A stretch of 55,949 nt of DNA from Kineococcus rubinsiae (GTDB lineage Bacteria > Actinomycetota > Actinomycetes > Actinomycetales > Kineococcaceae): NCBI RefSeq assembly GCF_011839805.1, contig NZ_VWPY01000030.1, positions 1 to 55,949 on the forward strand, in the 5' to 3' direction. Numbering within the stretch: position 1 is the stretch's first letter; each line of letters opens with the position of its first letter. Below the pieces are notes generated by a model that saw only the letters and a list, made by a program, of their open reading frames with translations, was not told the DNA's origin and did no database searches. A program made the translations under genes and the position numbers. Shown here one piece after another: positions 27,933-30,776 of this stretch.

Positions 27933-27947
27933 GTCGCTGCGACCCCC

Positions 27948-27993
27948 CGGGGCCCCGTCGCGCGTGCCCCTCGGCACGCGCGGCGGGGCCCCG
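27948..27993 (+). terminator. Strong hairpin terminator after GH51
   Basis: Two 21-nt arms (27948-27968 and 27973-27993, core CGGGGCCCCG...GCGTGCC) pair with a single G-U wobble around loop CCTC. It starts 15 bp after the GH51 stop codon and stands about 70 bp before the methyltransferase start, so it probably separates the two transcripts. There is no U-tract. Confidence 0.8.
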
Positions 27994-28063
27994 TCGCGTC
28001 CGGGGACTCCTCCCGCCGGCCGCGCCCCCGCGCCGCGCCGGCGGGCGGCGAGCGGCGGACCGG

Positions 28064-28912
28064 GTGAAGCTGTTCCGCGTGGACCTGATCCGGCTCCCCG
28101 GGACCTACCCCGCCCAGGGGGACACCCGGCTGCTCGCCGACACGCTGCGGGAGAGGGCGCTGGCGCCCGCGCGCCGCGTCCTGGACGTCGGCACGGGCGG
28201 GGGCGCGCTGGCCCTCGCCGCGGCCGCCGAGGGGGCGGCGTCCGTGACCGCCGTCGACCTCTCGCGCCGCTCCGTGGTGACCGCGAAGCTGAACGGCCTG
28301 CTGCACCACGCCCACCTGGACGTGCGCCGCGGCGACCTGTTCGAGCCCGTCGCCGGGGAGCGCTTCGACCTCGTGCTCGCCAACCCGCCCTACGTCCCGG
28401 CCGCGACCGACGCCCTCCCCCGCCACCGCTCGGCCCGCTGCTGGGACGCCGGCGTCGACGGCCGCGCCCTGCTGGACCGCCTGTGCGCCGGGGTGGGCGA
28501 CGTGCTGGCCGAGGACGGCGTCCTGCTGCTCACGCAGTCCGTGCTCGCCGACGAGCAGCTCACGGTGCGCCGCCTGCAGGAGGCGGGGCTCCAGGCCGAG
28601 GTGGTGGCGCGCCGGCCGGAGCCGTTCGGCCCCGTGATGCGCCGGCGGGCCGCCCTGCTGCGCGAGCGCGGGCTGCTGCCCCCCGACGCCGACCACGAGG
28701 AGCTCGTCGTCGTCGAGGCGCGGGCCGTCGCCGTGCCCGTCGCGGACCCGCCGCCCGCCACCCCCGCGCGCCGGGGCCCGGTCCTCGACCTGCGCGACGG
28801 CCACCGCCCCGTCGGCGTGGACCCCGCCCTCGTGAACCCCGTCCTCGTGGACCCCGCCCTCGACGAGGAGCGGCGGGACGCCTCGCGGCGGGAGGCCGGA
28901 CGTGCCCGCTGA
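28064..28912 (+). CDS. HemK/PrmC-like class I SAM methyltransferase
   Basis: Protein of 282 residues with a seven-strand methyltransferase core. SAM motif I is VLDVGTGGGALALAAAAEG (about 41-59), acidic motif II is VTAVDLSRRSV, and catalytic motif IV is NPPYVPA (about 106-112), typical of glutamine or nucleic-acid amino methylation (HemK/PrmC/MTQ2-like). The C-terminal region includes a repeat, VDPALVNPVLVDPAL. GTG 28064 was chosen from the conserved KLFRVDLIRLPGTYPAQGD. The gene overlaps the next one by 11 bp and is first of a three-gene operon with a CDGSH protein and a di-iron oxidase. The substrate could be a protein Gln or a small molecule; nothing in the sequence decides it. Confidence 0.82.
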   Translation: MKLFRVDLIRLPGTYPAQGDTRLLADTLRERALAPARRVLDVGTGGGALALAAAAEGAASVTAVDLSRRSVVTAKLNGLLHHAHLDVRRGDLFEPVAGERFDLVLANPPYVPAATDALPRHRSARCWDAGVDGRALLDRLCAGVGDVLAEDGVLLLTQSVLADEQLTVRRLQEAGLQAEVVARRPEPFGPVMRRRAALLRERGLLPPDADHEELVVVEARAVAVPVADPPPATPARRGPVLDLRDGHRPVGVDPALVNPVLVDPALDEERRDASRREAGRAR

Positions 28913-29117
28913 CCGCGCCCCGCGCCGCGTCCGCATCACGGGCGACGGGCCGATCCTCCTCGAGGGCCCCGTCGAGGTGGACCTGCCCGACGGGCGCCGC
29001 GTCGTCTCCGAGCGGCCCGTGACGGCCCTCTGCGTCTGCGGCAGCTCGAAGCGCTACCCGTTCTGCGACACCAGCCACCGCCGCCGCGTCCGCGCGGAGC
29101 CCGAGGAGGAGCGATGA
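28902..29117 (+). CDS. CDGSH-type iron-sulfur protein
   Basis: A 71-residue mitoNEET-like protein that should bind one 2Fe-2S cluster with three Cys and one His. The motif C44-V-C46-G-S-S-K-R-Y-P-F-C55-D-T-S-H59 fits C-x-C-x2-S/T-x3-P-x-C-D-G-S/A/T-H, except that the Gly is Thr. The part before it (RITGDGPILLEGPVEVDLPDGRRVVSERPVTALCVCG) is the usual CDGSH-domain strand. No membrane anchor. GTG 28902 lies inside the methyltransferase 3' end, with GGAGG about 7 nt upstream. It overlaps the next gene by ATGA. As a small redox protein it is a natural candidate electron donor for the di-iron protein encoded next. Confidence 0.93.
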   Translation: MPADRAPRRVRITGDGPILLEGPVEVDLPDGRRVVSERPVTALCVCGSSKRYPFCDTSHRRRVRAEPEEER

Positions 29118-30151
29118 CCACCACCAGCGCAGCGGTCCGCACGAGCGGTCCCGCGCTGCCGCAGGCCCGCGGCCCCCTGTCCGCCGCCGTCCTGCACGCC
29201 CTGCGCGGCGGCGGGGCCGACGCGGCCGCGCTGCGGGGCGACGTCGCGGCGGCCGACCCCTTCGGCGACGACCTGCAGCTGGCGCTCTGCGCCTGCTACG
29301 AGCTGCACTACCGGGGGTTCGCCGGCGTGGCGGACGACCTCGAGTGGGACCCGGACCTGCTGGCGCTGCGCCGCGACCTGGAGCGGGTCTTCCTCGCGGC
29401 GCTGCGCGCAGCCGTGGCGGGCGGGGACGACCTCGCCGGGGAGATCGACGCCCTGCTCGTCGAGCACGTCGACGCACCCGGGGTCTCCGCGCACCTGCGC
29501 AAGCACGGCGAGCTGTGGCAGTTCCGCGAGTACATCGCGCTGCGCTCGATCTACCACCTCAAGGAGGCCGACCCGCAGGCCTGGGTCATCCCACGCCTGG
29601 AGGGCGAGGCCAAGGCCGCGCTCGTCACCGTCGAGCACGACGAGTACGGCGCGGGGCGCGGGGACCGCATGCACGCGCAGCTGTTCGCCGACATGATGCG
29701 CGAGCTGGGGCTGTCCGACGACTACGGCCACTACCTCGACGTGGCGCCCGCGGCCGTCCTGGCCGAGGTGAACCTCATGTCGCTCTGCGGGTTGCACCGC
29801 TCGCTGCGCGGCGCGCTGGTCGGCCAGTTCGCGGTCGTGGAGCTCACGTCGTCGCCCGGCTCCGACCGACTGGTGCGGGCGGCGAAGCGGCTGCGCTGCG
29901 GCCCCGCCACGGAGGGGTTCTACGCCGAGCACGTCGAGGCCGACGCCGTGCACGAGCAGGTCGTGCGGCACGGCATCATCGCCCCGCTCGTCGCGGCCGA
30001 CCCCGCGATGGCCGCGGACGTGGTCTTCGGCATGCAGGCCACGGCGGTGCTCGACGAGCGGCTGTCGGAGCACCTGCTCGCGTCCTGGGCCGCGGGGCGG
30101 TCGGCGCTGCTGCGGCCGCTGGCCGACGGCCGGGCCGTCCCGCCGGTCTGA
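29114..30151 (+). CDS. Haem-oxygenase-like di-iron oxidase (iron-containing redox enzyme family)
   Basis: A 345-residue, all-helical, soluble protein with no signal peptide. It shows the pattern of haem-oxygenase-like di-iron oxidases (HDO). Candidate ligands are E63 in CYELHYRGF, E177 in VEHDEYGAGRGDRMH (with H187), and H273, D277 and H280 in YAEHVEADAVHEQ. The E-H-D-E-Y-G-x-G segment is typical of the iron-containing redox enzyme family. Known HDOs do N-oxidation, C-C cleavage or desaturation (UndA, SznF, CADD); this one's reaction is unknown. ATG 29114 overlaps the CDGSH stop (ATGA). The hairpin at 30148 ends the operon. Confidence 0.82.
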   Translation: MTTTSAAVRTSGPALPQARGPLSAAVLHALRGGGADAAALRGDVAAADPFGDDLQLALCACYELHYRGFAGVADDLEWDPDLLALRRDLERVFLAALRAAVAGGDDLAGEIDALLVEHVDAPGVSAHLRKHGELWQFREYIALRSIYHLKEADPQAWVIPRLEGEAKAALVTVEHDEYGAGRGDRMHAQLFADMMRELGLSDDYGHYLDVAPAAVLAEVNLMSLCGLHRSLRGALVGQFAVVELTSSPGSDRLVRAAKRLRCGPATEGFYAEHVEADAVHEQVVRHGIIAPLVAADPAMAADVVFGMQATAVLDERLSEHLLASWAAGRSALLRPLADGRAVPPV

Positions 30152-30165
30152 GCGGGAGCGCTCAG
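30148..30165. terminator. Compact hairpin between convergent genes
   Basis: CTGAGCG (30148-30154), loop GGAG, CGCTCAG (30159-30165). The hairpin overlaps the stop codons of both the HDO gene (stop ending 30151) and the response regulator gene (stop 30162-30164), so one element could terminate both transcripts. The stem is only 7 bp, so efficiency is uncertain. Confidence 0.55.
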
Positions 30166-30776
30166 ATCCACCCGAGCCGGCGCGCGGTGACGACGGCCTC
30201 GTGCCGGTTCGCCGCGCCGAGCTTGCCGGTGGCCGAGGACAGGTGGTTGCGGACCGTCCCGGGCGACAGCGACACCTTCGCGGCGATCTCCTCGATGCCC
30301 GCGCCGTCGGCCGCGAGCTCCAGGACGTCGGCCTCGCGCGGGGTCAGCGGGCTCTCGCCCGCGGCGATCGCGTCGGCCGCGAGTTCCGGGTCGACGTAGC
30401 GGCCGCCGCGCGCCACCGTGCGGATCGCGTCGGCGAGCACGGCGCCGGACGCCGTCTTGGGCAGGAACCCGCGCACACCGAGCTCCAGCGCCCGCTTGAG
30501 GTAGCCGGGCCGGCCGTGGCTCGTGACGATCATCGTGCGGCAGCCCGGGACGCCCGCGTGCACGGCCTCGGCGACGGCCAGCCCGTCCGCCCCCGGCATC
30601 TGCAGGTCGAGCACCGCGACGTCGGGCGACACCTTGCGCGCCACCGCGATCGCCTCCGGCCCGGACGCCGCCTGCCCGACCACGACGATGTCGTCCTGCA
30701 GGTCGAGCAGCCCGGCCACGGCGCTGCGCACGAGGTGCTCGTCGTCGGCGAGCAGCACCCGCACGGGGGCGCTCAC
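30162..30776 (-). CDS. NarL/FixJ-family response regulator
   Basis: A 204-residue two-component regulator. The receiver domain (1-120) has acidic DDE at 11-13, phospho-acceptor D57 in VAVLDLQMPG, switch residue T in IVTSHG and K in FLPKTASG. The C-terminal LuxR-type HTH is PLTPREADVLELAADGAGIEEIAAKVSLSPGTVRNHLSSATGKL. It is the partner of the histidine kinase whose stop codon overlaps its start (GTGA). The ABC transporter at the head of the operon suggests DesR/BceR-like control of that transporter. DNA targets are not identifiable. Confidence 0.95.
   Translation of the reverse strand: MSAPVRVLLADDEHLVRSAVAGLLDLQDDIVVVGQAASGPEAIAVARKVSPDVAVLDLQMPGADGLAVAEAVHAGVPGCRTMIVTSHGRPGYLKRALELGVRGFLPKTASGAVLADAIRTVARGGRYVDPELAADAIAAGESPLTPREADVLELAADGAGIEEIAAKVSLSPGTVRNHLSSATGKLGAANRHEAVVTARRLGWI

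Follow-up and report, generated by a model that had tools for sequence, protein, structure and literature searches.

Haem-oxygenase-like diiron enzymes (HDOs) carry a metal-binding motif written E-H-E-H-(D/E)-H, and all characterised members except FlcD need an outside reductant for multiple turnovers, according to the accessible portion of PMC11363339. The site of SznF, whose HDO domain acts in the streptozotocin pathway, has seven ligands (accessible portions of PMC10849742 and PMC11363339), and the enzyme hydroxylates a methylated guanidine (accessible portion of PMC13108848). The nearest published idea that we met to the system described here is the mangotoxin HDO MboA, which needs a dedicated redox partner, MboB, in what is perhaps the first characterised pair of this kind (accessible portion of PMC13185094). 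Here we describe a locus of the actinobacterium Kineococcus rubinsiae in which the gene for an HDO overlaps that for a CDGSH-type [2Fe-2S] protein, which in turn overlaps a methyltransferase (MT) gene. The window, meaning the whole stretch of DNA analysed, comprises 55,949 nucleotides of contig NZ_VWPY01000030.1. As in the MboA/MboB system, an HDO appears to have a dedicated redox partner in its own cluster, but MboB is an NAD(P)H-using reductase with flavin and Fe2S2 centres, not a small CDGSH or Rieske protein. The genes and overlaps are as follows.

28064 to 28912, plus strand: MT, a HemK2/MTQ2-like S-adenosylmethionine methyltransferase with a GTG start (TIGR00537 above cut-off, PF05175, conserved columns, fold model)
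28902 to 28912, plus strand: MT/CDGSH overlap of 11 bp, read from the sequence
28902 to 29117, plus strand: CDGSH-type [2Fe-2S] protein, CDTSH variant, with a GTG start (PF09360; ligands C44, C46, C55 and H59)
29114 to 29117, plus strand: CDGSH/HDO overlap, ATGA (4 bp), read from the sequence
29114 to 30151, plus strand: HDO with a predicted SznF-type site of seven ligands, three histidines and four carboxylates (PF14518; alignment to SznF, RohS and HrmI; model and fold search)

We propose, at a probability of roughly 0.55, that these genes constitute one functional module, in which an HDO N-oxygenase is served by a dedicated CDGSH electron donor and accompanied by an N-methylating MT and sometimes by a GCS2 ligase. 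An earlier sequence-only reading had already described three overlapping genes at 28064-30151, together with the NPPY motif of the MT and the C44/C46/C55/H59 ligands and CDTSH variant of the CDGSH protein; all of these are present, with overlaps of exactly the kind it gave.

The association of the three genes exceeds chance. Among 39 relatives, HDO is found in 19, CDGSH in 18 and both in 17, and presence agrees in 36; the disagreeing genomes are G004, whose HDO sits on the edge of a 3-kb contig, G021, which has a partial match (E 7e-4), and G032, which has a weak CDGSH match (2e-9) (G and L numbers are our labels for genomes and loci). Within the genus, the trio is kept in 6 of 10 other Kineococcus genomes, and HDO identity to the window is 91% in K. 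siccus and 76% in K. vitellinus. A sample of 396 Actinomycetota genomes has HDO in 96 and MT in 55 (E <= 1e-20), two of which (G168 and G299) were dropped as partial, PrmC-like matches. All 53 remaining MT-bearing genomes carry HDO, versus 96 of 396 overall (Fisher p 1e-39, uncorrected for kinship). CDGSH proteins of any kind occur in 149 genomes of the sample, comprising 79 of the 96 with HDO and 70 of the 300 without. At E <= 1e-20, CDGSH is found in 71 genomes, 66 of which carry HDO, the profile having been built from HDO neighbours and so being biased toward HDO-linked matches. Presence of HDO and CDGSH agrees in 16 of 16 genomes of the window's own order and in 43 of 44 from the other orders of its class. 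Moreover, G178 and G197, HDO-less members of mostly HDO-bearing genera, are without all three genes. The co-conservation on which the earlier reading had staked its idea of a system thus extends across the phylum.

Physical linkage was assessed in 112 loci (17 around relatives and 95 around phylum matches), 56 named loci (of 57 found, one was left out because its HDO match was weak), 30 loci from a single family and another 27 from Streptomyces; these samples share some members, such as G335, G354 and K. siccus. In the first three sets, CDGSH is no more than 1 kb from HDO in 73/112, 50/56 and 18/30 loci, and MT in 42/112, 44/56 and 9/30. The 27 new Streptomyces loci are stretches of about 4 kb each, and in 22 of them the three genes lie near one another. 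Layouts vary: MT-CDGSH-HDO, HDO-MT-CDGSH, HDO facing CDGSH-MT, MT and CDGSH flanking HDO, and others. A FastTree tree of 186 HDOs requires no fewer than 15 changes of layout label across its 98 trio rows, and setting aside two artefact labels (L129 and L203) and a gene swap in which a Rieske protein takes the place of CDGSH leaves at least 12.

Joint frames and DISPLACEMENT are represented by L075 and L121, which have joint frames, and by G335, which has a Rieske protein in the slot otherwise held by CDGSH. In L075, one open frame of 467 codons spans CDGSH and HDO domains with a Pro/Ala-rich stretch between them; in L121, MT and CDGSH share a 380-codon open frame. The Rieske protein of G335 (PF00355, E 6.7e-19) is encoded between MT and HDO. 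We searched 146 genomes of the family of G335, of which 62 have HDO, and among the 30 best loci from these 62 the order HDO-Rieske-MT occurs in five, CDGSH in 24, and neither in one (L235, a short stretch). The five swap genomes are G335, G472, G532, G536 and G538; their loci, L157 and L219-L222, are as follows.

L157, 4117 to 4503, minus strand: Rieske protein replacing CDGSH between HDO and MT, as also in L219-L222 (PF00355 above cut-off in all five, E 5e-21 to 2e-15)

Two changes are required for the Rieske label on the HDO tree, and one of them is the unrelated, distant Rieske protein of L203. CDGSH and Rieske folds are unrelated, and their common feature is a small, His-ligated [2Fe-2S] electron-transfer centre. 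The best evidence on the role of the slot is this replacement of CDGSH by Rieske in five genomes, because of which the CDGSH slot most likely holds the electron donor of the HDO, as judged from sequence. Synteny, the one joint frame of CDGSH with HDO and the Rieske replacement together are our reasons for regarding the CDGSH protein as a putative dedicated one-electron donor. The earlier proposal that CDGSH feeds electrons to the HDO gains indirect support from both the Rieske-bearing slot and the CDGSH-HDO frame, and keeps the standing of a prediction. Separately, a remote HDO paralogue in Streptomyces (L158, 4877-5991, minus strand) has a small Rieske gene directly after it and a dihydrodipicolinate-synthase-like gene, judged by eye, in a second and independent HDO-Rieske pairing.

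The window CDGSH protein itself is a predicted [2Fe-2S] electron carrier. It matches PF09360 (E 1.2e-16), its four ligands are kept in 99-100% of 129 rows, and the nearest solved chain by profile is 3tbm. Like CISD (mitoNEET-like) proteins it has a single CDGSH motif with three Cys and one His, but most rows (87 of 128) spell that motif CDTSH. A different role for it is conceivable within a real module: instead of supplying electrons for catalysis, the CDGSH protein could load or guard the HDO metal site, either by donating iron or a cluster or by sensing redox state. CDGSH clusters are transferable, and adjacency and the joint frame would fit such a loader equally well. Rieske proteins, however, which are not known to engage in cluster transfer, occupy the same slot in five genomes, and we therefore regard loading or guarding as quite unlikely, even though many HDO diiron sites are labile (accessible portion of PMC13108848).

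The HDO matches PF14518 (E 3.2e-54), the sole Pfam domain found in its 345 residues, and is assigned to the HDO superfamily with a predicted two-metal, O2-activating site. Residues E177, H187, E243, H273, D277 and H280 supply the superfamily motif, and alignment adds E151 as a candidate seventh ligand. The protein aligns with SznF without gaps from residue 148 to about 293, at an offset of 38, such that all seven ligands match; E151 falls on SznF residue 189. The ligand list of the sequence-only reading survives for E177, H187, H273, D277 and H280; it had overlooked E243 and E151. E63, also on that list, was rejected as a metal ligand, lying outside the seven-ligand set, and is kept in 152 of 163 rows. 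This alignment takes in rows with a minimum length of 250 residues and E < 1e-60, identical rows counted once, and all seven ligands are kept in 161 of its 163 rows. The exceptions are L159, where E151 is changed, and L152 (4730-6163, plus strand), an HDO homologue that has lost most of its metal ligands, has no CDGSH gene in its stretch and may be a non-catalytic copy.

An AlphaFold2 model of the HDO (pLDDT, the predicted local distance difference test, 90.7; pTM, the predicted template modelling score, 0.90) has a haem-oxygenase-like fold, and a fold search with it returned HrmI, SznF and RohS as the first 18 structure matches, followed by FlcD and CADD. The confident model and the gap-free ligand alignment answer in part the second condition of the earlier reading, that the ligands should cluster in a predicted structure. 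RohS, which has a role in azomycin and is an HDO-family N-oxygenase by its PDB title, is also the solved structure that matches best by sequence (E 9.3e-9); the positions of E151 and of E177-H187 match by eye, but identity is 20%. SznF is alike in its gap-free set of seven ligands and unlike in three respects: identity is about 20%, its C-terminal cupin domain was not found in the window HDO by Pfam, and the window HDO has a CDGSH neighbour. The lysine N-oxygenase HrmI is the top fold match, with a template modelling score of about 0.7, but its site has three histidines and three carboxylates and is without the seventh carboxylate (accessible portion of PMC13108848). Taken by sequence, the likeliest reaction of the window HDO is N-oxygenation of a nitrogen compound that is small and polar. 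The enzyme could instead perform C-C cleavage, desaturation or decarboxylation in the manner of UndA, BesC or FlcD, since identical primary ligands can accompany diverged functions (accessible portion of PMC13108848). This alternative is a serious contender but an unlikely one: the seventh ligand, known originally from the N-oxygenase SznF (same portion of that review), is the one kept with the rest in 161 of 163 rows, and FlcD and CADD come after the N-oxygenases in the fold search.

The MT exceeds the HemK2/MTQ2 cut-off (TIGR00537, 111.4 bits against 87) and matches PF05175. Its NPPY motif, at residues 107-110, is kept in 100% (rounded) of 92 rows, and its last ~60 residues form a variable tail. 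A model of residues 1-224 (pLDDT 92.4) is nearest in fold to HEMK2/N6AMT1, then to PrmC, with gentamicin and aeronamide methyltransferases lower down, mixed with RNA methyltransferases; judged from the model, its fold relatives appear to be mostly N-methyltransferases. Identification of the MT as PrmC itself was rejected, as the TIGR03534 cut-off of 199.1 bits is missed at 80.5. HemK2/MTQ2 (N6AMT1) works with the partner Trm112 on the target eRF1, and the MT could likewise have a protein target, as is usual in the HemK family: a release factor, or else the HDO. In that case its link to the HDO would be regulatory. Family membership and nearest fold speak for such a role. The window-type MT is nevertheless confined to HDO genomes in the phylum sample, unlike a housekeeping release-factor methylase, and it falls far short of PrmC, so we find a protein target improbable. 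Co-occurrence and fold are instead the grounds on which we suggest that the MT may N-methylate the substrate or product of the HDO. Because pair-type loci without MT exist, the HDO-donor pair is the core of the module and the MT a frequent partner.

Several observations weigh against the three genes forming one module with the roles given above. The joint frames occur in single genomes each, scans of the other loci revealing none more, and L075 could start internally at a GTG codon. The Rieske-swap genome G335 retains two weaker CDGSH matches elsewhere. Roles in Fe-S handling have also been proposed for CDGSH proteins. The HDO is only about 20% identical to its nearest structures, which makes N-oxygenation a weak suggestion. 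The pair-type loci in the order of the window lack MT, as do two Kineococcus genomes, G010 and G004. Finally, in 29 of the 112 loci the stretch examined contains no gene for CDGSH or Rieske, so the donor gene is not always nearby. Among these 29, L027 is cut by a contig end, L125 has MT without CDGSH, G404 has MT and CDGSH side by side about 17 kb away, G277 has them on another contig, and many others belong to distant lineages. Such donor-less loci would be expected if the genes were together by chance or through shared regulation alone. That explanation is very improbable, however, given that the genes stay linked through numerous rearrangements, in two joint frames and across a gene swap, and that they are lost together.

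In the mechanism that we propose for the module, the CDGSH protein would be reduced by a cellular reductase and would pass electrons singly to the HDO diiron site between turnovers. That site would activate O2, and a nitrogen of a polar substrate would be oxygenated. In the same pathway, the MT would add a methyl group to the substrate or product, at a nitrogen of amide, amine or guanidine type. Some relatives encode a GCS2 (YbdK-type) carboxylate-amine ligase beside the HDO, and this ligase could build or cap the substrate. GCS2 profile matches lie near HDO in 12/112, 6/56 and 17/30 loci, within 1 kb in 9, 6 and 16 of these, and PF04107 was confirmed on four members. Public annotation of one plasmid copy names a YbdK family carboxylate-amine ligase together with an iron-containing redox enzyme and CDGSH and HemK2/MTQ2 proteins. 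A local profile search found no GCS2 gene within the window, and four matches lie on other contigs of the same genome. More broadly, we tentatively envisage a pathway widespread in actinobacteria. A HemK2-like N-methyltransferase would act together with a seven-ligand HDO N-oxygenase and its dedicated CDGSH or Rieske donor, joined in some lineages by a GCS2-type ligase, to yield a small metabolite that is both N-methylated and N-oxidised and that might be a metal chelator or a derivative of guanidine; this reading we hold as possible, at somewhat less than even odds.

Other neighbours were noted in individual loci. L191 (2785-4978, plus strand), from a Kutzneria genome, has two tandem GCS2-like genes ahead of the HDO. 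L252 (1887-5945), on a Kitasatospora plasmid, has genes for a YbdK ligase, a dimethylargininase and the HDO in line, with CDGSH and HemK2 facing them. Because a phmmer search found a dimethylargininase in no other searched locus, its hint at guanidine chemistry was dropped as evidence. A glycosyltransferase-2-like gene, so named from Pfam on one member (L116), adjoins the HDO, mostly directly after it, in nine loci without MT (L026, L027, L028, L034, L105, L111, L116, L126 and L130). Genes for Ppx/GppA, a flavin mononucleotide (FMN) dehydrogenase, a luciferase-like protein and an ATP-binding cassette (ABC) transporter recur in other lineages but were rejected as partners, as they look like ordinary shared synteny. 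The trio itself is found on large plasmids of Streptomycetaceae (L252-L257); PLSDB holds 13 plasmid records with HDO, and of seven opened, six carry the trio and one (11.85 Mb) has HDO and CDGSH only.

In the window, the trio is flanked at one end by an arabinofuranosidase gene and a LacI-type regulator and at the other by a two-component system; these neighbours were judged by eye, without a family search, and give no sign of a larger biosynthetic cluster. The earlier reading had placed terminators at both ends. A consensus terminator scan finds none, and flanking intrinsic terminators with T runs were rejected; what stands of that claim is a pair of hairpins lacking such runs, strong upstream and weaker at the HDO stop.

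27949 to 27992, no strand: GC-rich hairpin between the upstream gene and the trio, 20-bp stem, no T run (fold of 27935-28015, -63.8 kcal/mol, z -7.1)
30148 to 30165, no strand: short hairpin at the HDO stop codon, no T run (fold of 30140-30185, z -2.3)

Each of the three families is known, and what would be new is their combination together with the Rieske swap. A literature search, with most subscription papers outside its coverage, met no conserved HDO-CDGSH pair, CDGSH-to-Rieske swap or link to a HemK2-like MT; 'cdgsh' does not occur in the accessible portion of the HDO review PMC13108848, and by term counts the accessible portion of the CISD survey PMC3174974 mentions none of CDTSH, operon, haem oxygenase and methyltransferase. 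If our reading is true, a bacterial CDGSH protein would gain a definite function, that of supplying electrons to an oxygenase. The module would join two questions, where HDOs obtain their reductant and what CDGSH proteins, for which no settled function is known, do in bacteria, with the natural exchange of CDGSH for Rieske as a built-in control. Since HDO is present in 79 of 101 sampled Streptomyces genomes and the trio in 22 of 27 loci of that genus, a metabolite of these much-studied bacteria may be behind the module.

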